This document shows positions 10,325 through 49,023 of a stretch of DNA of 64,000 nucleotides, one piece after another. Numbering within the stretch: the stretch's first letter is position 1; every line of letters begins with the position of its first letter. Source of the stretch: Lachnospiraceae bacterium (GTDB taxonomy: Bacteria > Bacillota > Clostridia > Lachnospirales > Lachnospiraceae); assembly GCA_017552985.1 (NCBI GenBank), contig JAFZNO010000081.1, positions 92,795-156,794 on the forward strand, given 5' to 3'. Position numbers and translations under genes: made by a program. Below the pieces are notes generated by a model. The model was not told the origin of the DNA and searched no databases. It worked only from the letters and a program-made list of their open reading frames with translations.

Positions 10325-10392
10325 TTGATCTTCCAACCCGCGTTTATAATCTCTACCGTCAATCTTCACGTGCTGCATTCCTTCATCCGTGT

Positions 10393-20431: not shown

Positions 20432-21646
20432 CTATCCTATCTTACCATCAGTCATTAACGCGGACAGCATGTCTTCCGCGCCTTCACTCTTTGCAAGCAG
20501 TCCGTATTGATTGCAATAGGTCATGCACTCGATCCGGAAGCCTTCCCCACCGCGCTTTCGCAGAAAGAACAGGATCCTCTCCATGACGTAATCCATCGCC
20601 TTCTCGCAGCATCCTGCCTCCTTCAAAATCCGGATGCCCTCCTCCGTCACGGCAGTCTCCAATACGGCTCTTGCCGCGTCTGCGTCGCAGCCGGCCTTTA
20701 ATCCCGCCGCCGCAAGGAGCTCCATGCGACAGTCCCCCTCCTTGGAGTGCGTGTTCATAATGCCGCCGGAAACCTTGATCAATTTTCCAATATGTCCCGT
20801 GAGGAGCATTCCTGAAAAACCAAGCGCTTTCGCCATGTCAATGGTATCGCCGATGAAGTTCGAGCACTTCACGCTTTTATCCAGATCATAATCATAAGTC
20901 TGCTTCATAAAATCCAGGCCGTAATTTCCTGGAGACACGGCTGCAATCGCCTGTCCCAATGTCCTTTTTTGATTGAGTTCCACGCGGATTGTCTCCAACA
21001 ATGCCTTAGAACTCATGGGTTCCACGACGCCGCTTGTTCCCAAGATGGAGATGCCTCCAACGATCCCAAGCCTTGGATTGAAAGTCTTATCCGCAAGGTC
21101 CTTTCCTTCCGGCACGGAGATGGTCACGCGAAGTCCGCCGTGATAGTCACAGACGCTGCAAACCTCCAGCACTTCCTTCCCGATCATTTCCCTTGGCACG
21201 TGATTGATCGCCGCATTTCCCACGGGCTGATCCAATCCAGGAAGCGTAACGCGTCCCACGCCCTCTCCGCCGTCGATTATGATCCATGCCGCTTGAACGT
21301 CAACTGCCTCGATGCATGTCGGCGACGCACCGTCATTTACGCCTTTTTCCTCGATTTTATGCGTTGCTGGCTCGTAGGTTACCTCCGCAAACACGTGACA
21401 TCCCGTCGTCACGTCAGGGTCCGATCCGCCGTCCTTGATCACGGCGCACCGCACCAGGTCCTCTAGCCTTGTGATCTCTACGATCTGGGCGTGATACGGA
21501 ATGCCCTTGGGCGTCTCTATGGTGATCTCGTTTTTAAGTTTTCCCGTAAGGAGCATGTACGTCGCTGCCTTTGCAGCTGCTGCCGCGCAGCTCCCCGTCG
21601 TAAAGCCAAGCCTTACCGTACTTTCCTTCTCTGCCATTGCTGCCAC
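20432..21646 (-). CDS. cbiD: Cobalt-precorrin-5B C1-methyltransferase
   Basis: CbiD methylates C1 of the macrocycle in the anaerobic pathway using SAM. The 404-residue protein begins with the hallmark RLGFTTGSCAAAAAKAA (residues 13-29). It carries KDGGSDPDVTTG and GEGVGRVTLPGL, then GTSGVVEPMS, all typical of CbiD. The C-terminus adds the LTGHIGKLIKVSGGIMNTHS region. It lies just upstream of the LRR gene and 28 bp downstream of the DUF6483-like gene. Confidence 0.96.
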   Translation of the reverse strand: MAAMAEKESTVRLGFTTGSCAAAAAKAATYMLLTGKLKNEITIETPKGIPYHAQIVEITRLEDLVRCAVIKDGGSDPDVTTGCHVFAEVTYEPATHKIEEKGVNDGASPTCIEAVDVQAAWIIIDGGEGVGRVTLPGLDQPVGNAAINHVPREMIGKEVLEVCSVCDYHGGLRVTISVPEGKDLADKTFNPRLGIVGGISILGTSGVVEPMSSKALLETIRVELNQKRTLGQAIAAVSPGNYGLDFMKQTYDYDLDKSVKCSNFIGDTIDMAKALGFSGMLLTGHIGKLIKVSGGIMNTHSKEGDCRMELLAAAGLKAGCDADAARAVLETAVTEEGIRILKEAGCCEKAMDYVMERILFFLRKRGGEGFRIECMTYCNQYGLLAKSEGAEDMLSALMTDGKIG

Positions 21647-25951: not shown

Positions 25952-27379
25952 CTACGCAGAGGTGATTCTCATGATTTCGATCATTTCCTTGCCGCCTAGC
26001 CCAAAGTAACAGATCAGCAACATCACGATCAAACAAATGAGCAGGCAAAGAATTGCCGCTCCGTACATCAGACGATTCGCGCGCCGGATGTCCTCAGGCT
26101 CGATCGCGCGCTTTGCGTCTCCGATGGTGGGCTTATGAACAAGCTTGCCAAAATAGCTGGCATCTCCCGCAAGCTGGATTCCCAAGGCTCCCGCACAAAC
26201 GCTTTCCGTCTGGGCGGAGTTGGGACTTGCGTGTTTTAACCGGTCTCTCAGATAAATCCTCTCCGCCTCCGGTGCGTCAAAGGAGGAGCCAAGAAAATGA
26301 CAGGCAAAGATCATGAGTCTTGCACTGATCCTGGAGGGTAGATAATTTACAAAATCATCCAGCTTGGCAGCTGCCCGTCCAAAATCAAGATATCTTTCAT
26401 TCTTGTAGCCGATCATGGAATCCATGGTATTGATCGCCTTGTAGACAAGACCCAAAACCGGCCCGCCTATGGCAAGATACAGCAAGGGTGCGATCACGCC
26501 GTCGGAAGTATTCTCCGCAACCGTCTCCACCGCCGCGCGGGTAACTCCCTCCTCGGAAAGATTCGCCGTATCCCTTCCAACGATCATGGAAACAGCCCTT
26601 CTGGCATCCTTGAGTGAACCCGTTTTCAAAGCCTTGTATACCTTCATGCTTTCGACGCGAAGGCACTTCGCTGCCAAGATTTGATAAGTCAAAAACGCTT
26701 CCACCAGACAACCTGCGACGGGATGGATAAAATAGCTTCCCATAAAGAGTACGTCCGCCGCGACAACCGTACACAGAAGGACGATCAGCACGGTGGTGCG
26801 ACCCTGTTCCCTCTTCTTTTGGGCTTCTGGGGAAAGAGCTTCGTCCGCGGTAACTTTCTTTCTTTCCACGGCAGTGACAGCTTCCTGAACGGATTCCTCT
26901 TCGATTTCTTCAGATACCTTTTTCTTCGACGTCTGGCTCCAGTCAAATTCTTCCATGTTTTCAGACCAGATTACGTCCTCATGCAAATTCTTCCAATCCT
27001 CGAATTCGTCAGCCTCAGTCGCCGATCCCGTTACCTCTCCGGTTTCATCTTCGACGCTCCTGGTTTCTTGGTCTAACGTCTCCACGCTCTCATCAAACGC
27101 GCCTTCCATCTCCGGCCTGTTAGCTTCTTGACCGTCACCGTCCAGATTCTCACTTTCCTGGATTTCATTTTCTTGATTATCGCTCTCTTGGCTTTCACTC
27201 TCTTCATCGGCCGCAGGTATTGCCAAGGTCTCCTTAGGACCGAGATAGCGCTTCTCCAGCGTGCTGATCAGCTTCCCCATTGCCTTCACGGGATGCGGCA
27301 TAAAATATGGGTCCCCAAAGATGCAATCCAAAATAAAACCTAGCAAAAATGCAATTGCGTGATAAAAGTATACTGGCAT
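25952..27379 (-). CDS. cbiB: Adenosylcobinamide-phosphate synthase with large acidic insertion
   Basis: Membrane amide-bond ligase that attaches aminopropanol phosphate to adenosylcobyric acid. The N-terminus (FILDCIFGDPYFMPHPVKAMGKLI) and the second part starting at VLFMGSYFIHPV, with SMIVGRDTANLSEEGVTRAAVETVAENTSDGVIAPLLY, are both characteristic CbiB, normally about 310-330 residues in total. Here the protein has 475 residues because an acidic, Glu/Ser/Asp-rich low-complexity stretch of about 140 residues (about 50-188, bases 26815-27232) splits helix 1 from helix 2. The insert ends in a basic KKREQGR before the next membrane helix. The frame stays open across it, so it is not a frameshift. 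Cobalamin operon context agrees. Confidence 0.92.
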   Translation of the reverse strand: MPVYFYHAIAFLLGFILDCIFGDPYFMPHPVKAMGKLISTLEKRYLGPKETLAIPAADEESESQESDNQENEIQESENLDGDGQEANRPEMEGAFDESVETLDQETRSVEDETGEVTGSATEADEFEDWKNLHEDVIWSENMEEFDWSQTSKKKVSEEIEEESVQEAVTAVERKKVTADEALSPEAQKKREQGRTTVLIVLLCTVVAADVLFMGSYFIHPVAGCLVEAFLTYQILAAKCLRVESMKVYKALKTGSLKDARRAVSMIVGRDTANLSEEGVTRAAVETVAENTSDGVIAPLLYLAIGGPVLGLVYKAINTMDSMIGYKNERYLDFGRAAAKLDDFVNYLPSRISARLMIFACHFLGSSFDAPEAERIYLRDRLKHASPNSAQTESVCAGALGIQLAGDASYFGKLVHKPTIGDAKRAIEPEDIRRANRLMYGAAILCLLICLIVMLLICYFGLGGKEMIEIMRITSA

Positions 27380-30033: not shown

Positions 30034-30849
30034 TTATCTGATAACAATTTCCAAAATAGCAACAACACATAAGATCACTACTTCGGTAAGGGACACAAAG
30101 TATCCTGCCAGGTCTCCCGTAATCCCGCCAAATTGCTTCATGCTGACGTGATGATAATATGCAAAAGAAAGGCCGGCTGACGCAAGTAGCGTAGTACCCA
30201 TGACGGGACTTAGCACGATGGCTGCCGCCGCGATCAATACAAGCTGCAGGATCAAAAGAACCAGGACTGTTTTCTTTCCTGCCGTGTCGGAAAAGGTTTG
30301 GAGCATGCCCTTCTTCTTGGCGCCCGGCATGGTGACTACGCTGATTCCGCTGAGCGCCCTGGAAAGAAAGAAGCTCATGCAAAGCACGGCCACTCCCCGC
30401 CAATCCTCAAAGAGCGTTGATGCTTCCTGAATCGCCGCGTCAAACAGAATGGAAAGCGCTCCTGCCGCCAACAAAAAATATCCGGCAAGGCAGATCACGG
30501 CAAAGGCCCCTATGTGCGGATCCTTTAAGATCTCCAGCTTTTTCTCCCTGTCCTGATAGGAATGCAATGCATCGCAGGAATCCATAAAACCGTCCAGATG
30601 GAATCCACCCGTGACCAATATGGGAATGGCAATGGCGATAAAAACATAGGCACACGTTCCGAGCTCCCTTTGTGAGCACAGAAAGTACCAGAGCCACTCC
30701 AATCCGCCGATCACAGCTCCAACCCACGGGAAAAAGCACAGATGATATTTCATGTCATCCGATTCCCAGTTAAAGCGTGGCATTGGTATTTTTGAATAAA
30801 TGGAAAAGGCAACGACAAATGCTTTTCCAATCGACTTGATCCATTTCAA
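30034..30849 (-). CDS. cobS: Adenosylcobinamide-GDP ribazoletransferase (cobalamin synthase)
   Basis: Joins adenosylcobinamide-GDP and alpha-ribazole (phosphate) in the membrane to give adenosylcobalamin (phosphate). I start at TTG 30849 (reading MKWIKSIGKAFVVAFSIYSKIPMP), since AGGAGA stands upstream and the longer frame overlaps the preceding lipoprotein. It is 271 residues with about six membrane helices. FWESDDMKYHLCFFPWVGAVIGG and the GFHLDGFMDSCDALHSYQDREKKLEILKDPHIGAFA block are the CobS signature; the D-G-x-x-D-x-x-D-A pattern binds metal. Confidence 0.94.
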   Translation of the reverse strand: MKWIKSIGKAFVVAFSIYSKIPMPRFNWESDDMKYHLCFFPWVGAVIGGLEWLWYFLCSQRELGTCAYVFIAIAIPILVTGGFHLDGFMDSCDALHSYQDREKKLEILKDPHIGAFAVICLAGYFLLAAGALSILFDAAIQEASTLFEDWRGVAVLCMSFFLSRALSGISVVTMPGAKKKGMLQTFSDTAGKKTVLVLLILQLVLIAAAAIVLSPVMGTTLLASAGLSFAYYHHVSMKQFGGITGDLAGYFVSLTEVVILCVVAILEIVIR

Positions 30850-30863
30850 GGTTTTTCTTTCTC

Positions 30864-31621
30864 CTACTTCCACACGTATTCGCAGTAAACTTGCTGATGG
30901 AGAACATAGTCTTCTGCCCGGCTGCTGATCAATCCCCATTCAATCTCATCCCAAGTCAGAGCATCATCATTGACCAGAACGTATCTTTCATAAGAGCTGA
31001 ACAGTGCGCTCGTACCCGGCTTTGGTTCCCCCTCATATTTCATCAGATACTTCCAATTTTTGATCGGATTGTCGTATCCTACCTGTTCATATACGTAATA
31101 ACCATCTTTTCCATAATGTACCGGGCTTAGCGTAAATTGCTCCCCGTCATATTCCAATTTGACGTAAAAAATCATTGGATAATTATCTTTTTCAGCTTCA
31201 TATAGCTCAGGCGAGACGCGCTCGGGATCCAACGTATGGTATTGCATGATCATGACGTCTGCCGCCTCTCCTAATAAGACTTTCTCATAAAAGGCAAGCC
31301 AAATATCCTTTCCATTCGTAACGCTCCCGTTTTGCATGACGACAAGACCATTATCAATCGCTATTTGCAGTTGCTCCTCGGCAGATGCGTCCGTAGGTTC
31401 TCCCGGCGTATTTATCGCCGTCTCTTCCGCTACGGATTTCTCGGTCTTTTCCATGGATGATTCCGCTACGGATTCCACGCTTTTTTCCGTAGACGATTCT
31501 GCTACGGATTCCACGCTTTTTCCGCTGACGATCCCGCGCTGCCTTGCGGTTCCCGTCCCGCACACCCTGCCATGCCCGTCAAGGCAACGGCAATAAGTAT
31601 CCAACACGTTTTTCCCTTCAT
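30864..31621 (-). pseudogene. Lipoprotein gene with a frameshift in a short A run
   Basis: ATG 31621 has a good ribosome binding site (AAGGGG) and encodes a lipoprotein signal, MKGKTCWILIAVALTGMAGC, then CAGREPQGSAGSSAEK. The frame ends soon after. The rest of the gene, including repeats of the unit SVESVAESS(T/M)EK and about 180 residues of globular sequence, is open in the next frame. The break is at 31517-31521, a run of five A on the coding strand, while the same position in the second repeat (31481-31486) has six. One added A would restore a 252-residue lipoprotein. It may be a sequencing error, a recent mutation or a phase-variable switch. Function unknown. It lies between cobU and cobS. 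Confidence 0.8.
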
Positions 31622-31632
31622 GGAATCACCCC

Positions 31633-32172
31633 TTATCCTTTCACTGGCAACGCAATTCCGGCAACCACTTCCACAACCTGCGCCGCATCCCCGGCGAGTT
31701 CCGCGTTCACCTTTCCCAGCGCACGCAGATAATCCCTTGTTCCTTCCTCATAATCGATACCATCTTCAAATACGTTATTCGAAACGATCACAAGATGATC
31801 TAAACTGGAATTCATTTGACGAAGCTGCATTACGATCTTATCCGCCACGATCTCCCAGGGCGTCATGGCGCCGTCTTCACCAAACATTTCGTTTGCGACT
31901 AAATTTCCCATGTCCTCCAGGAGAACGACTTTAGGGCCTTCCTGCATCTTTGGAAGCGCCTCTGAAACGTCGCGGGTCTGTTCGATCGTGAGCATGCCCT
32001 TATTCTTACGCAGTTCCACATGGCGATGCACCTTTCGGCGCCCTTCCTCTCCATAGACCTGCATGGTCGCAAGGTAATATCGCATGGCGCCATCTAAGCT
32101 CAGTTCCATGATTCTTTTTTCCGCATACGCTGACTTGCCGCAGCCGCTTCCTCCCACGATCAAAATCATCAT
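31633..32172 (-). CDS. cobU: Bifunctional adenosylcobinamide kinase / adenosylcobinamide-phosphate guanylyltransferase
   Basis: Phosphorylates adenosylcobinamide and transfers GMP to it. ATG 32172 gives 179 residues, the normal CobU length, with GAGGGA at a good distance. The alternative ATG 32181 is too close to that site. The P-loop is intact (IVGGSGCGKSAYAEKRI, residues about 5-20), and HRHVELRKNKGMLTIEQ holds the His region normally guanylylated. VVLLEDMGNLVANEMF and LVIVSNNVFEDGIDYEEGTRDYLRALGKVNAELA complete the family pattern. It is the functional copy compared with 28000-28419. The gene follows cobT. Confidence 0.95.
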   Translation of the reverse strand: MMILIVGGSGCGKSAYAEKRIMELSLDGAMRYYLATMQVYGEEGRRKVHRHVELRKNKGMLTIEQTRDVSEALPKMQEGPKVVLLEDMGNLVANEMFGEDGAMTPWEIVADKIVMQLRQMNSSLDHLVIVSNNVFEDGIDYEEGTRDYLRALGKVNAELAGDAAQVVEVVAGIALPVKG

Positions 32173-32229
32173 GGCCGTCATTCCCTCATGTCTTTCCCTA
32201 ATACCTTGCCTAAGCCGGTGCGTCTCTAA

Positions 32230-33372
32230 TCATTGAAAGCGCTCATACCGTCCTATGCCTGCCCCTTCAAATGACACGCTGTTTTCATAAACCGCATTCG
32301 CCGTTTTCAAAAGCTGAAGCATCATCACTGCACCCGTGCCTTCCCCAAGTGCCATTTTGGCATAAATCACCGGCTGCAGGCCCAGTTCTTTCTCAATGGC
32401 CTTTACGGCAGGTTCCTTGCCGGAATGGGAAGGGATCAAGTAAGCTTTCACTTTGGGCTCGATCCAGCATGCCACAAGTGCCGCGGCAAGGCTGATAAAC
32501 CCATCCAAAACGATCGGCACGTGATGCTTTGCACCGCCGAGGCAAATGCCTGCCATGCATGCCAAGTCATATCCTCCCATCGTTTCCAATGCGTCTAGCG
32601 CAAGCTCTCTTTTGGAATACGCCGGTTCTCTTTTTTCACCGAGCTCAACTCCGATCTTTTCCGCTATTTCCTGCGCTTCGCCCAGTTCCGTCTGATAACC
32701 GTACTGAAACAATGCCTCCCGGATGATCGCTTTTTTTCGTGAAAGCCCCGCGTCATCAAGGCCTGCACCCCTGCCCGTCACGGTGACGGAAGAAAGTCCG
32801 AGAAGCGCTGCCGTTACGGCACTGGAAGTCGTCGTGTTTCCGATTCCCATCTCACCAATCCCAAGAATGGCATAGCCCGCTTCCTTGCTCTCCAAAACCA
32901 GCTTCTCGCCGACGCCAAATGCTTTTTCAACTTCTGCCGCCGTCATCGCCGGCTCTTTCCGGAAATTTCTGGTACCCTTCCGGATTTTTTCATCCCGGAC
33001 GCCGCTGATCTTTTCGTCCGTATTGATTCCGACGTCAACGCACAAAACGTCAACGCCTGCCTTCCTTGCCATGATGGCTACGCTGGAGCGCCCGCCCGCA
33101 ATGTTGCCGGCGCAGATCGCAGTGATCTCCTGTCCGCTTTGGCTTACGCCCTCCTCCACAATGCCATTGTCCGCACAGCAAACGATCACGCGGCTTCTTT
33201 CCACCTCCGGAAGAAGCCTCCCCTGGATCGCTCCAATGCGGGAAAGCAGCTCCTCAAAGCTTCCCATGCCGTCCAAAGGCTTTGCCACCTTGTCCCAGCC
33301 GGCTTTGATCTTTTTGTATAACGCCTGATCGATTTCCTCGATCTCCAGCGCTCCCAAATCTATCTGATCCAT
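32230..33372 (-). CDS. cobT: Nicotinate-nucleotide--dimethylbenzimidazole phosphoribosyltransferase
   Basis: Activates the lower-ligand base to alpha-ribotide using nicotinate mononucleotide. From ATG 33372 (AAGGAAG upstream) it has 380 residues, close to the usual 350-380. Family marks include VCCADNGIVEEGVSQSGQEIT and MARKAGVDVLCVDVGI, GIGEMGIGNTTTSSAVTAAL, and KMALGEGTGAVMML, where the Glu is the general base known from Salmonella CobT. The open frame extends 15 codons upstream without support. The base used cannot be predicted from sequence. Confidence 0.95.
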   Translation of the reverse strand: MDQIDLGALEIEEIDQALYKKIKAGWDKVAKPLDGMGSFEELLSRIGAIQGRLLPEVERSRVIVCCADNGIVEEGVSQSGQEITAICAGNIAGGRSSVAIMARKAGVDVLCVDVGINTDEKISGVRDEKIRKGTRNFRKEPAMTAAEVEKAFGVGEKLVLESKEAGYAILGIGEMGIGNTTTSSAVTAALLGLSSVTVTGRGAGLDDAGLSRKKAIIREALFQYGYQTELGEAQEIAEKIGVELGEKREPAYSKRELALDALETMGGYDLACMAGICLGGAKHHVPIVLDGFISLAAALVACWIEPKVKAYLIPSHSGKEPAVKAIEKELGLQPVIYAKMALGEGTGAVMMLQLLKTANAVYENSVSFEGAGIGRYERFQ

Positions 33373-33425
33373 TTCGTTCTTCCTTTTCCCATATGCCACG
33401 CAGCATGGCAGCGTCAACTAAGGTT

Positions 33426-34964
33426 CTAAATGGCTGCGTCGCGAAGCATTGCGTACACGGCATCTACGTCCAAGTGCTTTCTCATCTCTGCCGCCAAAAG
33501 ATCATACTGGCTCTCTTTATAGGCGCGGTAATCCGATTCCTCCGGTGCCCGCAGGGTAACGCCCTTCCCGTCAGCCAAGGCCTTTGCGATGCGATACGCC
33601 ACGTCACCTTGATCAAAAATGCCGTGTACGTAACTTCCGCATACGTTTCCGCAAATGGCGCCGTCCATGCGAAAATCACCCGCGGCAGCCGTCTGTGCGG
33701 AACCCTCTTCCCTCTGACGGATCTCGCAGATCCGGGTCAGGCTTTTTTGACCATCAGTAGCCCTCGTATCCCCCATGTGGATCTCGTAGCCTTCCACCGC
33801 CAGTCCTGACAGGCAGGAAAAGAAACCCTCCAGTTCTTCAAACGTTCCGCGAACCTGCAGGGTCGTCTTTTGAGCCTTTAAGGTCGTCTCGACGCCTAAG
33901 AGTCCCAAGCCCCGAATGGAGCCGCCTTCTTCCAAGCTCTCCGGATCAGCGATCACGTTTCCCAGCATCTGGTATCCGCCGCAGATTCCCATCACGGGCT
34001 TTTCCTGCGCAAAGCGGTAAATGGATGCCTCCATGCCGCTTTCCCGGAGCCACTTTAAGTCTCCGATGGTATTCTTGCTTCCAGGCAGAATAACAATGTC
34101 TGCGTCCGCAAGCTCCTCGGGCCTTGTCACGTAAGTTACCTTTACGCCGTCAATCCGCTCAAACGCTGAAAAGTCCGTAAAGTTCGAGATCCGCGGCAGC
34201 CTGATCACGGCCACGTTCACCGCTCCCCGCCCCTTACTCGTAAGACGTTCGCTTAAACTGTCCTCGTCATCCAGCTTTACGTGCATATAGGGCAACACCC
34301 CCGTAACGGGAATGCCGCCGCGCTCTTCCAACATGGTGATGCCAGGATCTAAGATGGTCTTGTCTCCGCGGAATTTGTTGACGATCAGTCCCTTGATCCT
34401 TGCCTTCTCGTCCTCCTCAAGGAGCATAATGGTTCCAAGGAGCTGGGCGAACACGCCGCCGCGGTCAATGTCGCCGACCAAAAGGACGGGAGCGTCCACA
34501 AGCTTTGCGATTCCCATGTTAACAATGTCATTTTCCTTTAAGTTGATCTCCGCAGGGCTTCCCGCGCCTTCGATCACGATCACGTCGGCATACTCCTCTA
34601 GCTTTTGGAAGGCCTTGACAATGTCAGGGATCAGCTTTGTCTTATACTTAAAATACTCTTTTGCAGGCATGTTGCCGAGGACTTCGCCGTTGACAATGAC
34701 CTGGGAGCCCTTGTCCGTCGTAGGTTTCAGCAAAATGGGATTCATGCAGACCATGGGTTCCATTCCTGCCGCTTCCGCCTGCATGACCTGCGCGCGCCCC
34801 ATCTCAAGTCCTTCCTTCGTGATAAAGGAATTCAGGGCCATGTTCTGGGACTTGAACGGCGCAACGCGGTAGCCATCCTGCTTAAATATCCTGCAAAGAC
34901 CTGCGACCACCAGGCTTTTTCCGGCATTGGACATCGTCCCCTGCACCATGATCACCTTAGCCAT
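33426..34964 (-). CDS. cobQ: Cobyric acid synthase (glutamine-hydrolysing)
   Basis: Amidates carboxylates b, d, e and g of adenosylcobyrinic a,c-diamide. The 512-residue protein begins with [25 protein letters not shown], the CobQ P-loop-like start, then [16 protein letters not shown]. The central [14 protein letters not shown] motif and the C-terminal amidotransferase part ([12 protein letters not shown] with the catalytic Cys, and GSYVHGIFD with the catalytic His) are present. Its ATG overlaps the stop codon of the MIF-like gene by one base (TAATG). It is also called cbiP in anaerobic-pathway species. Confidence 0.96.
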
Positions 34965-35354: not shown

Positions 35355-36506
35355 TTATTCTACCACGTTTTCCAGTTTCCCGCAATTTTTTGCGTATTCT
35401 TTAAGGGCTTTATTTGCCTCATTTAGCGGTCCAAACGTCTTTAACGGACAAATTACCGACTCGCACTCGTCGATAAGCTTCCTTGCCCTTTCCAAAGCTT
35501 TGGCGTCAATGGGCGTGAAAGCCTCCGCGCTGACCACCTGGCTTGCACAGGCCCGCGCCGCATCCATCTCCAAGTCATTCTCAAAAAGAATGCCTGCGGC
35601 GAAAGGAATTCCTTCGCGCAGAAGCTTGTAATACGTAGGGATCCCCACTCCTCCGCCGCCAATGACGAAGATCTTTGGCTGCGCCTTTCCCGCCTTTAGA
35701 TACAGGGCTCCCGTCATGGGATTAAAGCATTCCTGGTCAACGCCGTAGAGCTTTTGCACGTAATCTCCGGAAAAAATCTCCTCCGGCGTTCCCTGTCTTG
35801 CCACCCGGTCTCCGTCCACGCAGGCAATCCAGTCAGACACCTTCATGGCCAAATCCAGTTCGTGCAGGGAAGTGATCACGGCGATTCCCTTTTCCTTTGC
35901 CAGTCTTCGGATTGACTCCAAAATGTCCAGTTTATGGCGCAAGTCCAAATATGAGGTTGGCTCGTCCAGCACCAGAACCTTGGGTTCCTGGCACAGAGCC
36001 CTGGCAAGCATGACGCGCTGTCTTTGTCCGTCGCTGATCGCATAAAAGCTCTGGTCCGCCACCTCCTCCGCGTTCATGATCCCCATGGCATCGTCCACCT
36101 TCTGCCAGTCTTCTTTCCCAAGAATTCCCAGCATTCCCACGTAGGGATATCGTCCCGTTGCCACCATTTCGCGACAAGTCATGAGTTCCGCGGCAGGTCT
36201 TTGCGTCATTACCATGGCGAGCCTCTTTGCAATTTCCGTGCCCGTCATCTCTTCCACGTCGTGCCAATTTTCTTTCCCCGCGTCCGTCTCCGCAGATCCG
36301 TCCTTCTCCAAAAAAAGGATCCTTCCGCCAAGGCTCTCCAATTGCCGGGTGAGCGTCTTTAGGATCGTGGATTTTCCAGATCCGTTTGGTCCGATCAGAG
36401 TCAGCACGCTACCGGCGCGCACCTCCAGCTCCACGCCCGAAAGAAGTACCTTTTTCTCATAGCCGACGCTTAGTTGTTCCGTTTTTAGTCCATTTTTTAT
36501 CTCCAC
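35355..36506 (-). CDS. btuD: Corrinoid/iron-siderophore-type ABC transporter ATPase with extra C-terminal domain
   Basis: ATP-binding subunit of the importer encoded just upstream. Walker A is GPNGSGKST (about 38-46), the signature motif is in YAISDGQRQRVMLARAL, and Walker B is VLVLDEPTSYLD, the FecE/BtuD pattern. After the ATPase (about 270 residues) comes an extra domain of about 110 residues beginning KIFVIGGGGVGIPTYYKLL. It has a nucleotide-binding-like GGGGVG turn and later EAFTPIDAKALERARKLIDECESVI. No such domain is present in E. coli BtuD. It could bind a nucleotide or corrinoid and control transport. It lies 47 bp downstream of the DUF2809 gene. Confidence 0.9.
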   Translation of the reverse strand: MEIKNGLKTEQLSVGYEKKVLLSGVELEVRAGSVLTLIGPNGSGKSTILKTLTRQLESLGGRILFLEKDGSAETDAGKENWHDVEEMTGTEIAKRLAMVMTQRPAAELMTCREMVATGRYPYVGMLGILGKEDWQKVDDAMGIMNAEEVADQSFYAISDGQRQRVMLARALCQEPKVLVLDEPTSYLDLRHKLDILESIRRLAKEKGIAVITSLHELDLAMKVSDWIACVDGDRVARQGTPEEIFSGDYVQKLYGVDQECFNPMTGALYLKAGKAQPKIFVIGGGGVGIPTYYKLLREGIPFAAGILFENDLEMDAARACASQVVSAEAFTPIDAKALERARKLIDECESVICPLKTFGPLNEANKALKEYAKNCGKLENVVE

Positions 36507-36553: not shown

Positions 36554-36946
36554 TTACTCCTTTTTACCTCCCCGTGTCGTTACTTCCTTAAAAATTCTCA
36601 GATCCATGATCAGATTTACGACGGATCCGGCAATATAGGCTATCATGTCTTTCCAGGAAAAGGAAGTTCCCATGACCACCCGGATAAAGCGATTCTTTAT
36701 GCCGAGAAGGTCCACCAGCGGGAAAACCTGCGTCGCTTCCACAAAAACGGCAAACAAAAAGATCCAAAGACATAAAAATGCCGGTTTCTCAGGGGAGATG
36801 CTCCTGATCAGGAAATAAAGGACAATCACGACGATCACGTCCCCCACGTAAGGCCTTATGAAACGGTCATGAACGAAGATCCCGATGAAGAATTCAACGG
36901 CCAGCAAAATCAGAAAAACGATAAAGTAAATCCACTTTTTTTTCAT
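36554..36946 (-). CDS. DUF2809-family small membrane protein
   Basis: A 130-residue membrane protein with four hydrophobic helices (IYFIVFLILLAVEFFIGIFV, VGDVIVVIVLYFLI, AFLCLWIFLFAVFVEATQVFPLV, MIAYIAGSVVNLIMDL). I start at ATG 36946, which has GGAGG seven bases upstream and overlaps the stop codon of the permease gene by 4 bp. The motif FVEATQVF and the following DLLGIKNRFIRVVMGTSFSW match DUF2809, a family related to VanZ-like small proteins. No function is known. It is translated together with the corrinoid permease, which hints at a helper role in uptake. Confidence 0.85.
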   Translation of the reverse strand: MKKKWIYFIVFLILLAVEFFIGIFVHDRFIRPYVGDVIVVIVLYFLIRSISPEKPAFLCLWIFLFAVFVEATQVFPLVDLLGIKNRFIRVVMGTSFSWKDMIAYIAGSVVNLIMDLRIFKEVTTRGGKKE

Positions 36947-37986
36947 GTCCTTGCCTCCTTCTTCCGCAGCATCATGACAATGACCACGGGAGCAAGAAAT
37001 ACCGCAGTGACGGAGCTGATGCTGACCTCCGTCGGAGCAAACGCGCATCTCGCGATCCCGTCACAAAACAGCGTCACTACCGCGCCGCCGAGAAAACAAC
37101 CCGGAATCAGAATTAGGGGCTTTGCCGTTTTGGTGCAGAGCTTTACCAGATGCGGTACGGCGATCCCGACAAAGGATATGGGACCAGCGAATGCCGTTAC
37201 GCAAGCAGACAACAGGCTAGACAAGAGGATCATTGCGATCCGGAGTGCCTTCACGTTCACGCCCACGTTTCTCGCATATGCTTCGCCTAACTGATATGCT
37301 CCCATAGGCTTCGACAACAAAAAAGTGATCACGCAGGTGAGAATCACCATCCAGGCCATGAATCCCACGTTCGCCCACTGCATTCCCGAAAAGCTTCCCA
37401 TGGACCAGTTGTGCAAATTTACGATGTTGGAGTCGTCCGCAAACGTGACCAAAAGGTCCGTCACCGCGGAACAGACGTAGCCGATCATAATGCCGCATAC
37501 GATCAGCAGGGATGCCTTTTGTACGCGAAGCGAGACCAAAAGCACAAATCCCATTGCCATTAAGGAACCGGCAAACGCTGCCGCCATCAAGCCATAAGAT
37601 TTCAAGTGAATGCCCTTGCCCAGGAAAAAGATCATGGTCAAGGCAACCACAAGTTTCGCGCCGGAGGAAATGCCCAGCACGTACGGACCCGCGATTGGAT
37701 TTCCAAAAAATGTTTGCAGAAGAAATCCTGAAACGGCAAGGGCACCGCCCAAAAACAAGGCTGCGAAAATCCTGGGGAGCCTAATGTTCCAAAGGATCTG
37801 ATAACCTGCGCCCTCCGTCACCTGCCCCGTTAGGATCTTCCATATCTCCGTTATCGTCATGGAATGGCTGCCACTCCATACGTTCCATAAGATCAGGGCA
37901 ATGAGTGCTGCGGCCGCGCCGGTAAAGAAAATGATCCTTCGCAAATATGAAGTTCTGCGGGACTGCGTCTTTTCCTTCTCCGCCAT
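36943..37986 (-). CDS. btuC: FecCD/BtuC-family ABC transporter permease
   Basis: Membrane subunit of a corrinoid or siderophore importer. From ATG 37986 (AGAGG upstream) it has 347 residues and about ten helices. The family motifs ILWNIRLPRIFAALFLGGALAVSGFLLQTFFGNPIAGPYVLGISSGA and AFAGPISFVGIAVPHLVK are well conserved. FecCD permeases transport either siderophores or B12; the link to B12 is from context only (riboswitch, cbiK and btuF ahead). The alternative start at 38010 adds eight residues. The gene lies 46 bp after the binding-protein gene. Confidence 0.92.
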   Translation of the reverse strand: MAEKEKTQSRRTSYLRRIIFFTGAAAALIALILWNVWSGSHSMTITEIWKILTGQVTEGAGYQILWNIRLPRIFAALFLGGALAVSGFLLQTFFGNPIAGPYVLGISSGAKLVVALTMIFFLGKGIHLKSYGLMAAAFAGSLMAMGFVLLVSLRVQKASLLIVCGIMIGYVCSAVTDLLVTFADDSNIVNLHNWSMGSFSGMQWANVGFMAWMVILTCVITFLLSKPMGAYQLGEAYARNVGVNVKALRIAMILLSSLLSACVTAFAGPISFVGIAVPHLVKLCTKTAKPLILIPGCFLGGAVVTLFCDGIARCAFAPTEVSISSVTAVFLAPVVIVMMLRKKEART

Positions 37987-38032
37987 GCTTCCGTTCCTCT
38001 CCGTAATCACTTAAAACCAATACTTCCAAAAT

Positions 38033-39238
38033 TTATTTCGTGAGTTTTTTCATTTGATGGAATTCCGTTTGCTCCGGATCCCGGAGCGCTTTGCCCAGAT
38101 CCTCTACGAAATCCGCGATGGCCGTGGTCTGCTGGAAGAAATTCTTCTCCGTGCAATAAACCCGGTTTTCCTTTACTGCCTTAAAATCCGCAAACAGCGG
38201 GCTTAACTCCAAAAGGTCTCCGACGCTGTTTAATTCACCGACGATGGTGCTGTTATAGACGATCACGTCAGCATCCTTCGCGGCGAGATAAAAGTCTTCC
38301 ATCTGCATGTTCATGGTGGAGAGGGCATTCTCTTCCTCCACTTTGGCATCCGCCAAAACATACTCTCCGCCCGACAATTCAATCATTTTTGCAACGTAAT
38401 CTCCAGGCTTTCTTACGTTGACCACGCCATTGGAATTCACGTAAAAAAACGCCACCTTGTAATCCGTTTTTTCTTGTTGCAACACAGGCGTAATTTCCTT
38501 GACCGCCTCATCAAAAAAAGCCGCCGCCTCATCCTCGCGGTCAAACAAGAGTCCATATAGCTTGATCCATTCCATTCTTCCGAAAGGGTGTGCTTCATAG
38601 CTTGAGGTTTCCACCAAGACAGGAATCCCCAGCGATTCCAATTTTTCTTTTGCTTCCGGGTTGTGATAGATCATGGTGTTTTCGATCGCAAGATCGCATC
38701 CTTCCGCGACCATAAGTTCATAATCCGGCTTATTATATTTCCCGGCATACAATAGCCTTCCCTCATTCATGGCTGACACGGCTTCGGAGATGCAAAGATC
38801 ATCCTTTTTTGTTCCTGAGAGGCGAATGCTATCTAATGCTTCGGCTTCCCTGATCAGATCAAAGACGGAGGAAGATGCCAGATAAACGTGCCGTAAGGGT
38901 TTTCTAAGGATTGCAACGTCCTTGGGAACACCATCTGGAATTACTCCTCCTTCCGGTATCACCAGAAAACGATCTGCATCCGCAATCGTTATCAGATTAT
39001 ACTCTCCACATTTTTCCACAAAAAAAGTCGTAGCGTGAGAAAGCTCCAACCCCTTTTCCCAATGCATTTGGTCAAAGGAGGCAGCCATGTTTTCCCCGCT
39101 AGCGACCTCAGTTTTTACGTCGTTCCCGGATTGACTCTCCGTAACCGGATTGTTTTTTCCGGAACCCTGTCCCCCCGCGCTACACGCGCAAAGGGACAGG
39201 CAAATCAGCAAGGTCAGTCCTGCCTTAATAATTCTCAT
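38033..39238 (-). CDS. btuF: ABC transporter substrate-binding lipoprotein (BtuF/FecB family)
   Basis: A 401-residue secreted lipoprotein with signal peptide MRIIKAGLTLLICLSLCAC (lipobox SLCA|C). A Gly/Ser/Asn linker leads to the periplasmic-binding fold. Features such as PDGVPKDVAILRKPLRHVYLASSSVFDLI and GIPVLVETSSYEAHPFGRMEWIKLYGLLF followed by DREDEAAAFFDE are typical for class III binding proteins. Near the C-terminus is VKENRVYCTEKNFFQQTTAIADFVEDLGKAL. The ligand is inferred to be a corrinoid because it directly follows cbiK behind the riboswitch. Confidence 0.9.
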   Translation of the reverse strand: MRIIKAGLTLLICLSLCACSAGGQGSGKNNPVTESQSGNDVKTEVASGENMAASFDQMHWEKGLELSHATTFFVEKCGEYNLITIADADRFLVIPEGGVIPDGVPKDVAILRKPLRHVYLASSSVFDLIREAEALDSIRLSGTKKDDLCISEAVSAMNEGRLLYAGKYNKPDYELMVAEGCDLAIENTMIYHNPEAKEKLESLGIPVLVETSSYEAHPFGRMEWIKLYGLLFDREDEAAAFFDEAVKEITPVLQQEKTDYKVAFFYVNSNGVVNVRKPGDYVAKMIELSGGEYVLADAKVEEENALSTMNMQMEDFYLAAKDADVIVYNSTIVGELNSVGDLLELSPLFADFKAVKENRVYCTEKNFFQQTTAIADFVEDLGKALRDPEQTEFHQMKKLTK

Positions 39239-39260: not shown

Positions 39261-41285
39261 TTACTCCTGCACTACAAACTTCACAGAATATTCAATTTCA
39301 TGAGGCGTACCCATGGCAATGGTGTCTCCGATCACATTCAGTTCTTCCCCAAGACTCTTCACTGGAATGGTGAACTTGGAGTTTTCCCCCTCAGCTGCCT
39401 CATTTAAGTATTTCTCGCCGTCCACGATCATGTAGTCATAATTTTTGCTGCTCCAGGTCAGCTGCGCGTAAATCTTGGCATCCTTAACAACGATCTTCAC
39501 GGGATTCTCAATCGTTGCCTTGCCGGATCCGCCAGTCACCGTAACCGTGGCAACGTATTCACCGTCTGCCAGAGATGCTGCTGCCGTCTTGACGGACACT
39601 ACGCCGTTAAGGTTGCCTTCCGTCACCTCGGAAACGCTTACCTTATGATCATACCACGTACCCTTGGTTCCAACAAGTGCAAGGTCAAATTCCTGATTCA
39701 GCGCGGGCACGGGAACGTCAAAGCCATATACCTCTTCCTTCTCGCCGTCACTGTAAGTCACCTCATCGATCGAGGGCAGGATGATCGCATCGCCAAGGCC
39801 TTTCAAGTCAGCCACAAGTCCCTGGAAAAGCTTCACGGTGTTCTTGCTGGGCATGGTAATATGCAGGGTCATCTTGCCATCCTTGATCGTCAGGGTTCCC
39901 TTACCCTCACATGCCTCGTTGGTCTTGAACATGCCGCTGTCCGTGCTGAACTTTGCAAGATAGGTTACGCCTTCCTTAAGCTCTGCCTCCGTCAGTCCGG
40001 TTGCGGTTTCCGTGGACTGACCCTCAAGCGAATTTGCAAGCTCAATTGCTTCTGCAGCATGACGCACGTAGATTGCCTGTACCTCGGGAATTCTTCCAAG
40101 TCCCGCAATCTGTACGTCAATGCCCTCAAACTCTTCTGAGGCCGTAAACATGCTCAGCCAAGAATCCTCATCCTCACCTGCCATGTCGTTGTTTGCATGA
40201 TCTCCCGCAACTACCATCAAAGGACGAAGAATAACCTTAGGGAACTTTCTCTCTGCAACCTTTTCGATCACTGCTTCGCAGGAAGTATCCTCCGGCTCCC
40301 CTTCCACGGTGCCAATAAATACGTTGTTATACCCAAGCTCATTCATTTGGGTCTGCATCTGGCTGTAAGTAATCTTTGCAGAGTGCGCGGTACCATGGCC
40401 CATCAAAACAATGGCGGTTCCGCCTGCCTCAGCCGCTGCGTTGTCTCCAAGACCAGCTTTTTTAACGGCATCATTGATCACGGCCTTAGCCACCGCCTGC
40501 TTGTCCTCATTGATCACATTGGCGTCACTGCCAACTTCGCCAAGCAAGGGCTCTGCAACCACAATGGTCGGGATCTGATTTTCATACTGCTTCAAAGCGC
40601 CGACGAGCTCATCATATTCAGCGCCGTGCATCAGATGCGTGGGCTGTACCACAAGTTTCTTTACGCCATTCTTAACGGCACGCTCCAACGCCTGCTCCAT
40701 ATTGTCGATCTTCTCGCCGTCTCTTGCCTGCACGTGATTGATAATGATCTGTGCCGTAAACGCACGTCTCACGGACCAATCGGGACAAGCTGCCTGTAGT
40801 GCCTTTTCCACGCTTGAAATGTCTTCCACGCGGCTGTCATTAAAGGAGGTGCCAAAGCTTACGACCAAGAGCTCCTTCTCACCAATGCCGTCCTGATTTA
40901 AGGGATCATCCTTGGAGGCATCTCCGGTATCACGTCCAAAGTAATCGGGATCTGCATTTTCGCCTTCCACCAATTCCTTTTGCGCATCGGTCAATTTGTC
41001 CCAAGCAGCCTTTGCTGCAGCACACTGCTCATCCGTTTTATCAGTTCTGGTCTGTACGTAAATGGCATCGATCAGGGCAGCCACCTCGTCTGCCAGCTCT
41101 TGATCCGTCTTTTCCTTGATCACTTCCTTGCTCTCCTCCGTCGTGGTCTCATCCTGAGTGCTTTCCTGCGTGCTCTCCTCCGTCGACGTCGTCGCATTAG
41201 GGTCCGGTGCCATGTTTGTGCAGGCGGCCATGCCCAAAGCGAGCGCCATCGCCGCCATCATTGCCAGTAACGTTTTCTTCTTCAT
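39261..41285 (-). CDS. cbiK: Extracytoplasmic lipoprotein sirohydrochlorin cobaltochelatase with C-terminal NEAT-like domains
   Basis: Inserts cobalt into sirohydrochlorin. The 674-residue protein has a lipoprotein signal (residues 1-22, lipidated Cys22), a Ser/Thr/Glu linker and a small helical surface domain (about 60-125). The CbiK domain (about 137-425) has VVSFGTSFND and putative metal ligands His217 in QPTHLMHGAEYDEL and His363 in VVAGDHANNDMAGED. The last about 235 residues hold two immunoglobulin-like, NEAT-resembling domains (VTYLAKFSTDSGMFKTNEA and DGEYVATVTVTGGSGKATIENP) known for binding porphyrins. The usual cytoplasmic CbiK is about 260 residues, so this form is exported. It is the first gene after the cobalamin riboswitch. 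Confidence 0.93.
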   Translation of the reverse strand: MKKKTLLAMMAAMALALGMAACTNMAPDPNATTSTEESTQESTQDETTTEESKEVIKEKTDQELADEVAALIDAIYVQTRTDKTDEQCAAAKAAWDKLTDAQKELVEGENADPDYFGRDTGDASKDDPLNQDGIGEKELLVVSFGTSFNDSRVEDISSVEKALQAACPDWSVRRAFTAQIIINHVQARDGEKIDNMEQALERAVKNGVKKLVVQPTHLMHGAEYDELVGALKQYENQIPTIVVAEPLLGEVGSDANVINEDKQAVAKAVINDAVKKAGLGDNAAAEAGGTAIVLMGHGTAHSAKITYSQMQTQMNELGYNNVFIGTVEGEPEDTSCEAVIEKVAERKFPKVILRPLMVVAGDHANNDMAGEDEDSWLSMFTASEEFEGIDVQIAGLGRIPEVQAIYVRHAAEAIELANSLEGQSTETATGLTEAELKEGVTYLAKFSTDSGMFKTNEACEGKGTLTIKDGKMTLHITMPSKNTVKLFQGLVADLKGLGDAIILPSIDEVTYSDGEKEEVYGFDVPVPALNQEFDLALVGTKGTWYDHKVSVSEVTEGNLNGVVSVKTAAASLADGEYVATVTVTGGSGKATIENPVKIVVKDAKIYAQLTWSSKNYDYMIVDGEKYLNEAAEGENSKFTIPVKSLGEELNVIGDTIAMGTPHEIEYSVKFVVQE

Positions 41286-41401: not shown

Positions 41402-41499
41402 CTTTCACATCAAAATTAGACCTTCTCAGGGCTTTTCCCTAAGACGGTTTTCTCTCGATACGACCAATGACTCGTGATCTGGAATTTCTTCCCGTACCA
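41402..41499 (-). promoter_or_regulatory. Leader between riboswitch core and terminator
   Basis: No gene in this stretch. It holds the linker of the riboswitch expression platform, with several short self-complementary pieces but no clear antiterminator that I can prove by eye. Confidence 0.5.
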
Positions 41500-41696
41500 T
41501 TATAACTGGCAGGTTTCCTGGCTGAAAGATCATCGCGGACGCGTCGCCTTCCCAATCCAACGGATCAGTGACTGACTCCTTATGCAAAGAGTCCTGACGC
41601 TCCCACTCCCTTATCACAGTGACGAGATCGTGCGGGAATCTCACCCGCTTCCCTTTTAACCCTTAGAGAAAAAGGACTTCTCCGCCGGCACCAATT
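41500..41696 (-). promoter_or_regulatory. Cobalamin (adenosylcobalamin-class) riboswitch
   Basis: On the minus strand the leader carries the known elements of a B12 riboswitch in order: GGTGCC (41692-41687), AAGTCC, TAAAAGGGAAGCGGGTGAGATTCCCGC, CGTCACTGTGA as B12-box-like core, then GTCACTGA, and GCCAGGAAACCTGCC (41522-41508), which matches the conserved GCCAGGAGACCTGCC arm. The promoter is upstream and a terminator follows. It probably lowers transcription of the whole cbiK-btuFCD-cob run when B12 is plentiful. Confidence 0.93.
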
Positions 41697-41720
41697 ACTC
41701 TTCTCTATGAAACTTGCTAT

Positions 41721-47427: not shown

Positions 47428-48930
47428 TTAGAACTGGATGCTTCTGGAAGGAGCGCCAAAGGAGGAGAACGTCGCCGTAGCGTTTCTGAAGTAGAGAACT
47501 TCCGTATTGTCATCCTCTGCGGAATACATGCCCTTCAGGTGAGGATATGCTTCCAGCATGTGCTCTTTTGCTTCGATCCTGTCATCGCGGATCAGTTCAC
47601 CTGCAACGCGCAGCCATCTGCCTTCCGCAAAGGCACAGATCTCTGCCTTCGGATTCTTCTGCAGCTGCTTGGAAACTTCCTTAACCTTACCCGTCTGGAT
47701 ATAAAGCTTGCCCTCGAACATGTCGATGGTGCCAAAAGGCCTTACCCTAGGCTGATCACCTTCCACCGTTGCCAGATAATAAACGCCAACTTCCTTTAAG
47801 AATTCATATACTTCCTGCATGGTAATCCCTCCTTTATTTTCCTCAGGCATTCCCTGTGCCTGGAAATCTTCTTCGCTTGCCTCAAACTTCCAGGGATTGA
47901 TCTGATCCTCAGGAACAACAACCTTCAAAACTTCATAATACGCTTCCTTGGCCTCGCATTTTCCATGGAACAGCAAAGGATAGCTTGTCTCCTTGCGGAA
48001 ACCGGAAAGCCAGCTGTTTTCATCCAACAGATTCCAGAACGTCACGGCAGTCACGTTCGCCTTGCCGGATTTCTTCGCCTCAACAATGATCTGGAAGAGC
48101 TCCTGATATCTCATGGCCAGCTGATGCATGGATTCCTCTGAAGGGTCTGCATTATGCAGGTCAAGCTCCGTGATCTGTACCTCGATTCCGAGCGCGCCAT
48201 ACATTTCCAATGCCGTTTTGAAATCCTTGAAGTCCGGATGATCCATGAGCAGGTGCGACTGCATTCCCATGCCGTCAACCAGGCCCTTTTCCTTTAAGGG
48301 AATCAGGATGTCCTTCAGGATGCAATCCCTCTTCCACTCCAAAGCAGTCTCGTAATCATTATAAAACAGTGATACGCCGGGAGTCGCATATTTTCTTGCA
48401 AACTCAAATGCCTTTTCGATAAAATCCTTTCCGAGAACCTTAAACCAAAGAGAATCGCGGAAACCGCCGTCATTGATGGCTTCATTGACAACGTCCCATG
48501 CATAGATGACGCCGGGATAATTGTCCTGTACAAAGCCAAGCACGCCCTTTACGTAGTTCTCCAGTCTTGCCAGCATCGTCTCCCTGCTTGCAAGCTTTCC
48601 GGAAGTATTATAATTCTCGTAAAAGAACCACTGCGGCGTCTGTCCGTGCCATACAAGAGTATGCCCACGCATGGGGATTCCTTTTGCCTTCGCCATCTCC
48701 AGATAGGGAATGGCATGCTCAAAAGTCAATGCCGGCACCAGGTTATACTTCCCCGGCTCCATGCGGTTTTTCTTCCCGTCAAGGAAATACATGGGTTTCA
48801 TGTCATTTTCAACGGTGTAGCTGCTAAACTGTTGCGAAAGGAACTCTACGTGTGCAGGCGTATGGAGATTCCATCTCGACATTGCCGCGCCCACTTTAAA
48901 ATATGGTGCAAATGCTGTTTTTAAATTCAT
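47428..48930 (-). CDS. GH10 endo-1,4-beta-xylanase fused to a pyridoxamine-5'-phosphate-oxidase-like FMN domain
   Basis: A 500-residue protein with two unrelated halves. ATG 48930 is supported by GGAGG six bases upstream. Residues 1 to about 350 form a GH10 xylanase barrel: the acid/base Glu150 in WDVVNEA, the nucleophile Glu255 in VQITELDLHN, and SRWNLHTPAHVEFLSQQFSS near the start. No signal peptide, so it acts on imported xylo-oligosaccharides in the cell. From Met371 comes a split-barrel flavin domain (VYYLATVEGDQPRVRPFGTID and CAFAEGRWLRVAGEL). The junction ENKGGITMQEV spans a perfect internal ribosome binding site, so the second half may also be made alone. The upstream stop codon has been lost. 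Confidence 0.9.
   Translation of the reverse strand: MNLKTAFAPYFKVGAAMSRWNLHTPAHVEFLSQQFSSYTVENDMKPMYFLDGKKNRMEPGKYNLVPALTFEHAIPYLEMAKAKGIPMRGHTLVWHGQTPQWFFYENYNTSGKLASRETMLARLENYVKGVLGFVQDNYPGVIYAWDVVNEAINDGGFRDSLWFKVLGKDFIEKAFEFARKYATPGVSLFYNDYETALEWKRDCILKDILIPLKEKGLVDGMGMQSHLLMDHPDFKDFKTALEMYGALGIEVQITELDLHNADPSEESMHQLAMRYQELFQIIVEAKKSGKANVTAVTFWNLLDENSWLSGFRKETSYPLLFHGKCEAKEAYYEVLKVVVPEDQINPWKFEASEEDFQAQGMPEENKGGITMQEVYEFLKEVGVYYLATVEGDQPRVRPFGTIDMFEGKLYIQTGKVKEVSKQLQKNPKAEICAFAEGRWLRVAGELIRDDRIEAKEHMLEAYPHLKGMYSAEDDNTEVLYFRNATATFSSFGAPSRSIQF
47821..47835 (-). promoter_or_regulatory. Internal ribosome binding site inside the xylanase-flavin fusion gene
   Basis: AAAGGAGGG (47835-47827 on the minus strand) stands six bases before the in-frame ATG at 47820. 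It is the best Shine-Dalgarno sequence in this region and lies inside an open frame. It probably belonged to the separate flavin-domain gene before fusion. Confidence 0.8.
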
Positions 48931-49023
48931 GCGTAACCTCCTCATTAAGACTTTTCTTTGTACATTATCTCAGAAAAAATCGTTTTACGCTACGTTATTA
49001 TTGTTATTCTTGCTCAATCCTTG

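Follow-up and report, generated by a model that had tools for sequence, protein, structure and literature searches.

What would a CbiK-type cobaltochelatase with an export signal be doing at the head of a B12 operon? The question is raised by a gene at 39261..41285 on the minus strand of a 64,000-nucleotide stretch of Lachnospiraceae bacterium DNA (assembly GCA_017552985.1, contig JAFZNO010000081.1, positions 92,795 to 156,794), here called the window. Open reading frame (ORF) analysis, domain searches and alignment define it as coding for a 674-residue predicted lipoprotein, predicted to be exported, in which a CbiK domain (residues 137-417) is followed by two NEAT-fold domains, N1 and N2. 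A cobalamin riboswitch lies upstream of it, and genes of a BtuFCD-like importer and of corrin synthesis lie downstream. We conclude that this protein very probably serves extracytoplasmic tetrapyrrole handling for the corrin pathway. With less confidence, we also consider it probable from the sequences that a membrane-anchored cobaltochelatase and a NEAT relay together feed a scavenged precursor to BtuFCD.

An export signal, an intact CbiK domain and two NEAT folds

The CbiK domain (40035..40877, minus strand, as for all window features below) matches the Pfam CbiK model at 226.6 bits (cut-off 26.2) over the entire profile (1-262 of 262). The counterparts of E89, H145 and H207 in Salmonella CbiK are E223, H297 and H363 here, and none of the three varies among 28 aligned relatives; we take the glutamate to be catalytic. 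The domain is complete, as the preliminary description of the locus had it. The role of the two catalytic histidines is stated in the available text of PMC7689651. On the NCBIfam equivalog model SiroCoChCbiK the protein scores 178.7 bits, under the cut-off of 400, and is not classed as the cytosolic equivalog; a predicted signal peptide and lipobox also set it apart from the cytoplasmic enzyme. The only solved relatives found were Salmonella CbiK (1qgo), FetB (9b86), which the available text of PMC13402209 assigns to P. gingivalis, and 2xvx.

The signal peptide, recognised by its sequence pattern, spans residues 1-22 (41220..41285) and ends at Cys22, whose column is invariant in the 28 aligned relatives, in agreement with the lipoprotein signal originally proposed. 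For comparison we assembled 118 loci with an exported CbiK (107 of the window type and 11 of a second clade) and 52 with a cytosolic one. The lipobox pattern is found in 99 of the 107, 10 of the 11 and 4 of the 52, respectively, and the four cytosolic matches (L122, L127, L130 and L133) have about 300 residues preceding their CbiK. We rejected the reading of the window protein as cytosolic, with a chance signal, because the pattern recurs so widely in the window-type relatives as against the cytosolic ones. Between signal and chelatase lies a conserved region defined by alignment (about residues 56-130, 40896..41120); it is highly conserved among window-type relatives, with an invariant Cys88 and an GENADPDYFGRDTGDAS-like sequence.

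The 257 residues C-terminal to the CbiK domain hold N1 (residues 433-556, 39618..39989) and N2 (residues 569-674, 39264..39581). When compared with solved entries, both domains model as NEAT folds, so that the two NEAT-resembling beta domains first seen in the sequence are upheld by prediction, and the C-terminal part does resemble a ligand-binding fold in these models. Profile searches are less uniform. N2 reaches 35.6 bits against Pfam NEAT within the 254-residue tail, 31.9 within the whole protein and 27.8 alone (cut-off 32.8), and its profile matched no NEAT entry among the PDB sequences. N1 has no Pfam NEAT match, and of the 21 matches of its profile to PDB sequences two are weak NEAT matches (E 0.26 and 0.54), the other 19 being a surface-layer protein and galectins. 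The YxxxY ligand motif of NEAT domains sits on strand 8; the last strand reads HEIEY in N2 and WYDHKV in N1. The only NEAT match in the genome falls within this same gene.

Corrin genes without HemB or CobA

The assembly to which the window belongs (3.86 Mb, 98.5% complete) has the CbiK lipoprotein gene as its sole CbiK match. The lack of a second, cytoplasmic CbiK, remarked earlier for the window, thus extends to the whole genome, and the proposed search for a cytoplasmic CbiK or CbiX found neither. Profile searches of this genome likewise gave no separate CbiX, no HemB and no CobA above cut-off. Its five TP-methylase genes are those of CbiF, CbiH, a CbiJ-E-T fusion, CbiL (TIGR01467, 193.6 bits against 163.25) and RsmI, and all the corrin-ring steps looked for after cobalt-sirohydrochlorin, from CbiL to CbiA, have genes. 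Since the sole CbiK is predicted to be exported, CbiX, CobA and HemB were not found and CbiL to CbiA are present, the cytosolic pathway found begins at cobalt-sirohydrochlorin, which is the product of an enzyme carrying a putative export signal. With corrin genes present and HemB and CobA not found, the genome resembles, in these genes, a tetrapyrrole precursor salvager.

A CbiX hidden elsewhere as a second chelatase was considered and rejected. PF01903 matches of 20-29 bits occur in 41 of 68 genomes and were counted as cross-hits because all fall within CbiK frames; the whole CbiK lipoprotein of the window's own genome, at 33.5 bits for CbiX, was also taken as a cross-hit. A stand-alone CbiX was found in none of the 68 genomes, each listed PF01903 match lying inside a CbiK frame by coordinates read by eye.

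A scan of named genomes yielded at least 590 relatives among at least 595 pattern matches. The best 80, which were kept, are mostly labelled Lachnospiraceae or Clostridiales, with Oscillospiraceae, Treponemataceae and Eggerthellaceae also represented. Genome-wide counts cover 51 genomes, namely those behind 50 of the 80 loci and the window's own. CbiK matches number one in 40 of the 50 and two in the remaining 10. CbiC is present in 51/51, HemB in 9/51 and CobA over its cut-off in 13/51, with HemB and CobA both missing from 38/51; the Butyrivibrio isolates with loci L007 and L012 are among the genomes in which neither was found. Nine of the 51 have a second CbiK that is not of the window type, as judged by match span and frame, and HemB is significantly more frequent among them (5/9, against 4/42 of the others; p 0.005). 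Incomplete assembly is not the general cause of HemB absence, because some HemB-less genomes are near-complete, such as G036, with its locus (L044) on a 3.19-Mb contig of a 3.2-Mb genome, and G108, in five contigs and 100% complete.

A homology-independent sample of 130 genomes spread evenly over the family (129 genera) has CbiK in 76, HemB in 44 and CbiC in 78 genomes, a partial HemB match of 24 bits in G177 being counted as absent. The CbiK proteins were assigned by hand to classes E, E2, C and A from score, lipobox pattern and tail, L156 being placed in E2 though without a lipobox match. Exported CbiK is not confined to one genome: it occurs in 38 of the 130 (window type in 27, second clade in 11), which are 38 of the 78 genomes with CbiC and none of the 52 without. 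Counting L121, which has a signal peptide without a lipobox, as exported would give 39 genomes and leave the quoted HemB ratios unchanged. HemB is found in 3 of the 18 genomes whose CbiK is of the window type alone; where a cytosolic CbiK is present at all, the figure is 31 of 45 (Fisher test, p 2e-4), or 31 of 48 (p 7e-4) once three ambiguous genomes join the cytosolic side. Ambiguous loci (L098, L116, L121, L135 and L160) were left out of these tests unless their genome also had a cytosolic CbiK, and G068, with a window-type and an ambiguous locus, was counted on neither side. The ratios are 4/24 for genomes with exported forms only and 21/31 for those with the cytosolic form only. Taken together, this genome context strongly supports a role for the protein at the start of a corrin synthesis that draws its precursor from outside.

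Gene order and neighbours

Within 3 kb of CbiK, BtuF is found at 93 of the 118 exported loci but at 1 of the 52 cytosolic ones, whereas CbiM (0 against 16) and HemC (0 against 17) are found at cytosolic loci only. The neighbour panel was assigned by Pfam (CbiM, CbiN, CbiQ, glutamyl-tRNA reductase, porphobilinogen deaminase and a siroheme-synthase-like NAD-binding protein), CobA and HemL being named by reading from wider Pfam families. From these counts, genes of cobalt import or precursor synthesis often accompany cytosolic CbiK, and a BtuFC-type importer the exported form. Of the 107 window-type loci 23 were searched for a cobalamin riboswitch, and 22 of these have one upstream, as do 10 of 11 second-clade loci. 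NEAT-like domains, detected with profiles built from 15 window-type tails, occur in the CbiK protein or in an ORF within 3 kb at 105/107 window-type and 11/11 second-clade loci, but at 0/52 cytosolic ones.

Ninety-one of the 118 exported loci have all four parts (CbiK, N1, N2 and BtuF) within 7 kb. Their order is CbiK>N1>N2>BtuF at 87 of these, N2>BtuF>CbiK>N1 at three and N2>CbiK>N1>BtuF at one. The main order is divided into genes in 7 of the 8 possible ways: CbiK-N1/N2-BtuF (31 loci), CbiK/N1-N2/BtuF (25), CbiK-N1-N2/BtuF as in the window type (14), all separate (7), CbiK-N1/N2/BtuF (5), CbiK/N1-N2-BtuF (3) and CbiK/N1/N2-BtuF (2). The BtuF part was confirmed as Peripla_BP_2 in two of the fusions. 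Seven arrangements require at least six border changes, though related loci are not independent events. A fixed order with shifting gene borders would be the trace expected from a hand-over chain. An artefact of gene fusion or misassembly in the window was rejected, because the same-order string with its floating gene borders recurs in 87 of the 91 complete loci.

Some loci depart from the single-CbiK pattern. ORFs of 889-1090 residues at L068, L076, L079 and L081 match CbiK over some 650-730 residues and look like exported proteins with two CbiK domains each, in the order CbiK-N1-CbiK at L079; at L033 a short CbiK without a signal peptide (6602-7432, plus strand) stands directly upstream of the exported CbiK (7878-9104, plus strand), in the same direction. 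Among the cytosolic loci, L130 has an ATP-binding cassette (ABC) ATPase-like part fused to CbiK beside CbiM, CbiN and CbiQ (by Pfam), and ORF reading gives a similar fusion near CbiM/CbiQ-like genes at L127 and L133. These three fusions would couple cobalt import and insertion in one protein.

In the window the gene was described as lying between the riboswitch and a btuF-btuC-btuD importer at the head of the B12 operon, and both placements hold. The riboswitch (41491..41710; Rfam RF00174, 92 bits) is upstream, and the gene precedes the importer genes and then the cbi/cob run. The importer comprises a BtuF-like substrate-binding protein, a lipoprotein by sequence reading (38033..39238; Peripla_BP_2, 8.8e-26), a BtuC-like permease (36943..38010; FecCD, 2.2e-77) and a BtuD-like ATPase (35355..36506; ABC_tran, 1.1e-27). 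Binding protein, FecCD permease and ATPase are thus found together by Pfam. Among NCBIfam models, those for BtuC and for corrinoid ATPases match the importer best, yet with scores under their cut-offs (206.9 bits against 334 for the permease). Between btuC and btuD is a gene for a DUF2809 membrane protein (36554..37048, its start probably internal), which is also found at loci L003-L005. The ATPase is extended at its C-terminus by about 120 residues (35355-35720), in which Pfam has no match.

Further along the strand come a CbiP/CobQ-like gene, the name given by reading (33426..34964; GATase_3 and CbiA), and genes identified by Pfam as CobT (32230-33417; DBI_PRT), CobU (31633-32181; CobU), CobS (30034-30939; CobS), CbiB (25952-27379; CobD_Cbib), a CobD-like aminotransferase (23317-24402; Aminotran_1_2) and CbiC (22682-23320; 254 bits, but under its NCBIfam cut-offs). 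CbiD (20432..21646) matches TIGR00312 at 398 bits. CbiF (11475-12233), CbiH (9572-10492), the CbiJ-E-T fusion, a single protein of 696 residues (7485-9575), and CbiA (6074-7468) each exceed at least one NCBIfam cut-off, and CbiG (10393-11454) is under its own. Amid these genes lie one of the malate/L-lactate dehydrogenase family (12264-13379) and one for a C69 peptidase (24421-25887). Elsewhere in the window a single ORF (47428-48945) has the odd pairing of a GH10 xylanase (residues 8-341) with a pyridoxamine-phosphate-oxidase-like domain (residues 377-451).

Readings of the locus and known systems

In the mechanism that we propose, the CbiK domain, held outside the membrane, would load Co2+ into a ring scavenged from the surroundings, either sirohydrochlorin or a tetrapyrrole close to it. 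N1 and N2 would pass the product on to the BtuF-like lipoprotein and BtuCD would import it, so that CbiL could act on it directly in the cytosol and B12 be completed without the cell's own haem-type precursor synthesis; plentiful B12 would shut the operon through the riboswitch. Of the two options offered in the preliminary description, cobalt loading of an externally held tetrapyrrole and reuse of the CbiK fold as a binding protein, we favour the first, because the three catalytic residues (one Glu and two His) do not vary among the 28 aligned relatives, because the cytosolic pathway found begins with what this enzyme would make, and because exported CbiK co-occurs with corrin-ring genes and with HemB absence.

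Several observations weigh against this mechanism. The riboswitch is not exclusive to exported loci, as three of eight cytosolic control stretches hold one, in one case directly upstream, and 27 of the 118 exported loci are without part of the four-domain string, some despite long flanks. Among precursor genes, the searches of the window's own genome covered HemB and CobA. HemB loss is not peculiar to the exported form, since HemB is also missing from 10 of 31 cytosolic-only genomes with CbiC, from three genomes with only an ambiguous, unexported-looking CbiK and from four of five CbiC-containing genomes without any CbiK; the p-values given above also overstate independence, because the loci are related. 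Conversely, seven exported-only genomes have HemB (G014, G016, G026, G028, G072, G078 and G118). In their hem regions HemL lies near HemB in 7/7 and a SirC-like protein in 5/7, and no ORF there matches the CbiK query; no SirC was seen in the hem region of L187, and that of L189 has only HemB and HemL among the panel proteins. A separate siroheme use, or a SirC-type cobalt insertion, is a possible but unproven explanation of HemB in these genomes. Finally, we found no experiment or biochemistry on this protein family in the literature.

The second option of the preliminary description, a binding relay without catalysis, we regard as unlikely. Sirohydrochlorin, cobalt-sirohydrochlorin or a later corrinoid from neighbours would then be captured by the NEAT domains together with the CbiK fold and delivered to BtuFCD, any cobalt arriving with its ligand. 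NEAT domains and substrate-binding proteins do act as carriers, and the order CbiK>N1>N2>BtuF suits a hand-over chain. The available text of PMC10913741 moreover describes the P. gingivalis lipoprotein IhtB/FetB as homologous to CbiK and as a putative heme-binding protein. Pure binding, however, does not obviously demand three catalytic residues invariant in 28 sequences. Decidedly unlikely is the capture of cobalamin or cobinamide for ordinary B12 salvage through BtuFCD: the riboswitch and the BtuFCD-like genes would suit it, but exported CbiK occurs in none of the 52 CbiC-less genomes, in which B12 salvage would be most needed, and the known ligands of CbiK and NEAT domains are flat tetrapyrroles.

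Two further readings keep the metal chemistry at the surface and change its substrate. If free sirohydrochlorin is scarce, as it perhaps is, the protein might replace Fe by Co in siroheme, or exchange the metal of some other metallo-tetrapyrrole that is scavenged, instead of loading a metal-free ring, much as surface metal exchange is proposed for FetB in the available text of PMC13402209; no sequence feature points to de-metalation, however, and we consider this very unlikely. The least probable reading is heme or iron acquisition as for FetB/IhtB, with metal removed from or exchanged in surface heme. It draws on the relatedness of the CbiK domain to FetB (E 8.4e-33), on the Isd-system NEAT domains that bind heme according to the titles of their solved entries, on a weak resemblance of the BtuF-like protein to IsdE (27.6 bits against a cut-off of 298.65) and on the report, in the review PMC13402209 as available, of FetB as a surface chelatase that inserts Mn into protoporphyrin IX. 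Against it stand the B12 riboswitches upstream at 22 of the 23 window-type loci examined for them, the corrin genes that accompany exported CbiK in 38 of 38 genomes of the family sample, and the position of the gene at the head of a cob gene run.

External cobalt loading could extend well beyond this genome. We find the case evenly balanced for a route that is widespread among anaerobes of gut and rumen, Lachnospiraceae included. By this route sirohydrochlorin shed by neighbours would be loaded with cobalt outside the cell and passed through an Isd-like NEAT relay to a dedicated BtuFCD-type importer, and the corrin pathway would be completed in the cytosol, the cobalt perhaps entering complexed and not via CbiMNQO, and CbiK export to this end perhaps having more than one origin. 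If so, cobalt insertion, taught as a cytosolic step, happens outside the cell, sirohydrochlorin is a traded nutrient of gut and rumen, and many "producers" on genome-based B12 maps rely on their neighbours.

As to origin, a tree of 87 rows from a careful search, with its bootstrap not yet settled, places the window-type genes on one side of a branch supported at 99/94. A quick tree puts the second clade close to them; FetB and CbiKP there group with Salmonella CbiK and two cytosolic rows, but on long branches and with an unsure placement. The exported rows together with FetB and CbiKP take five label changes, at least three of them forced by starred branches, again with long branches. CbiK export may have had separate origins in Bacteroidota, in Desulfovibrio and in these Firmicutes, of which we are unsure.

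Among known systems, the class II cobaltochelatase CbiK of Salmonella (PDB 1qgo/2xwp) shares the whole CbiK domain with its Glu and two His, and differs in lacking the lipoprotein signal, the conserved N-terminal region, the longer CbiK domain, the two NEAT domains and the BtuFCD-like neighbours. The entry 2xvx we take to be CbiKP, a periplasmic second CbiK of Desulfovibrio vulgaris linked to heme, whose genome presumably also holds a cytosolic CbiK. It would share the extracytoplasmic location, but its solved chain of 269 residues is too short for NEAT domains. In the Isd-type heme relay (IsdA/IsdC/IsdX and listerial Hbp2), which the modelled NEAT folds resemble, NEAT domains hand the tetrapyrrole to the lipoprotein of an ABC importer. 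Here, unlike there, they are joined to a chelatase under a B12 riboswitch, and strand 8 of N2 reads PHE(I/V)EY in place of the YxxxY of Isd proteins. FetB/IhtB of P. gingivalis (9b86) is a CbiK-type lipoprotein beside binding-protein-dependent uptake genes (PMC10913741), an arrangement that the window gene, with its predicted lipoprotein signal, appears to share. FetB/IhtB differs in being studied as a heme/porphyrin protein, NEAT domains going unmentioned in the available text of PMC10913741, and its place in the tree, on long branches, is apart from the exported clades of the Lachnospiraceae. P. gingivalis is without the steps to precorrin-2 according to the available text of PMC6461909, and if external cobalt loading is true, the role of FetB-type proteins of other phyla merits re-examination.

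In the literature that we examined, as far as its text was available, a NEAT relay or an external cobalt insertion for B12 is not named; we found no paper combining CbiK with a NEAT domain, or a cobalamin riboswitch with CbiK and a lipoprotein, in a search outside which most subscription papers lay. Precursor salvage itself has been predicted from genomes before. Shelton et al. (PMC6461909, as available) list 180 tetrapyrrole precursor salvagers, mostly Firmicutes, with 5-aminolevulinic acid (ALA) dependence in three; the accessible part of the review PMC8123684 puts precorrin-2 salvagers at 0.6%, and in that of PMC12654859 a rumen bin with 8/10 corrin steps and 0/5 precursor steps is classed as a cobinamide salvager. 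The salvagers of Shelton et al. resemble our genome in having corrin genes without precursor genes, but their account, in its available text, names no machinery of uptake or chelation, for which CbiK-NEAT-BtuFCD now offers a concrete candidate.

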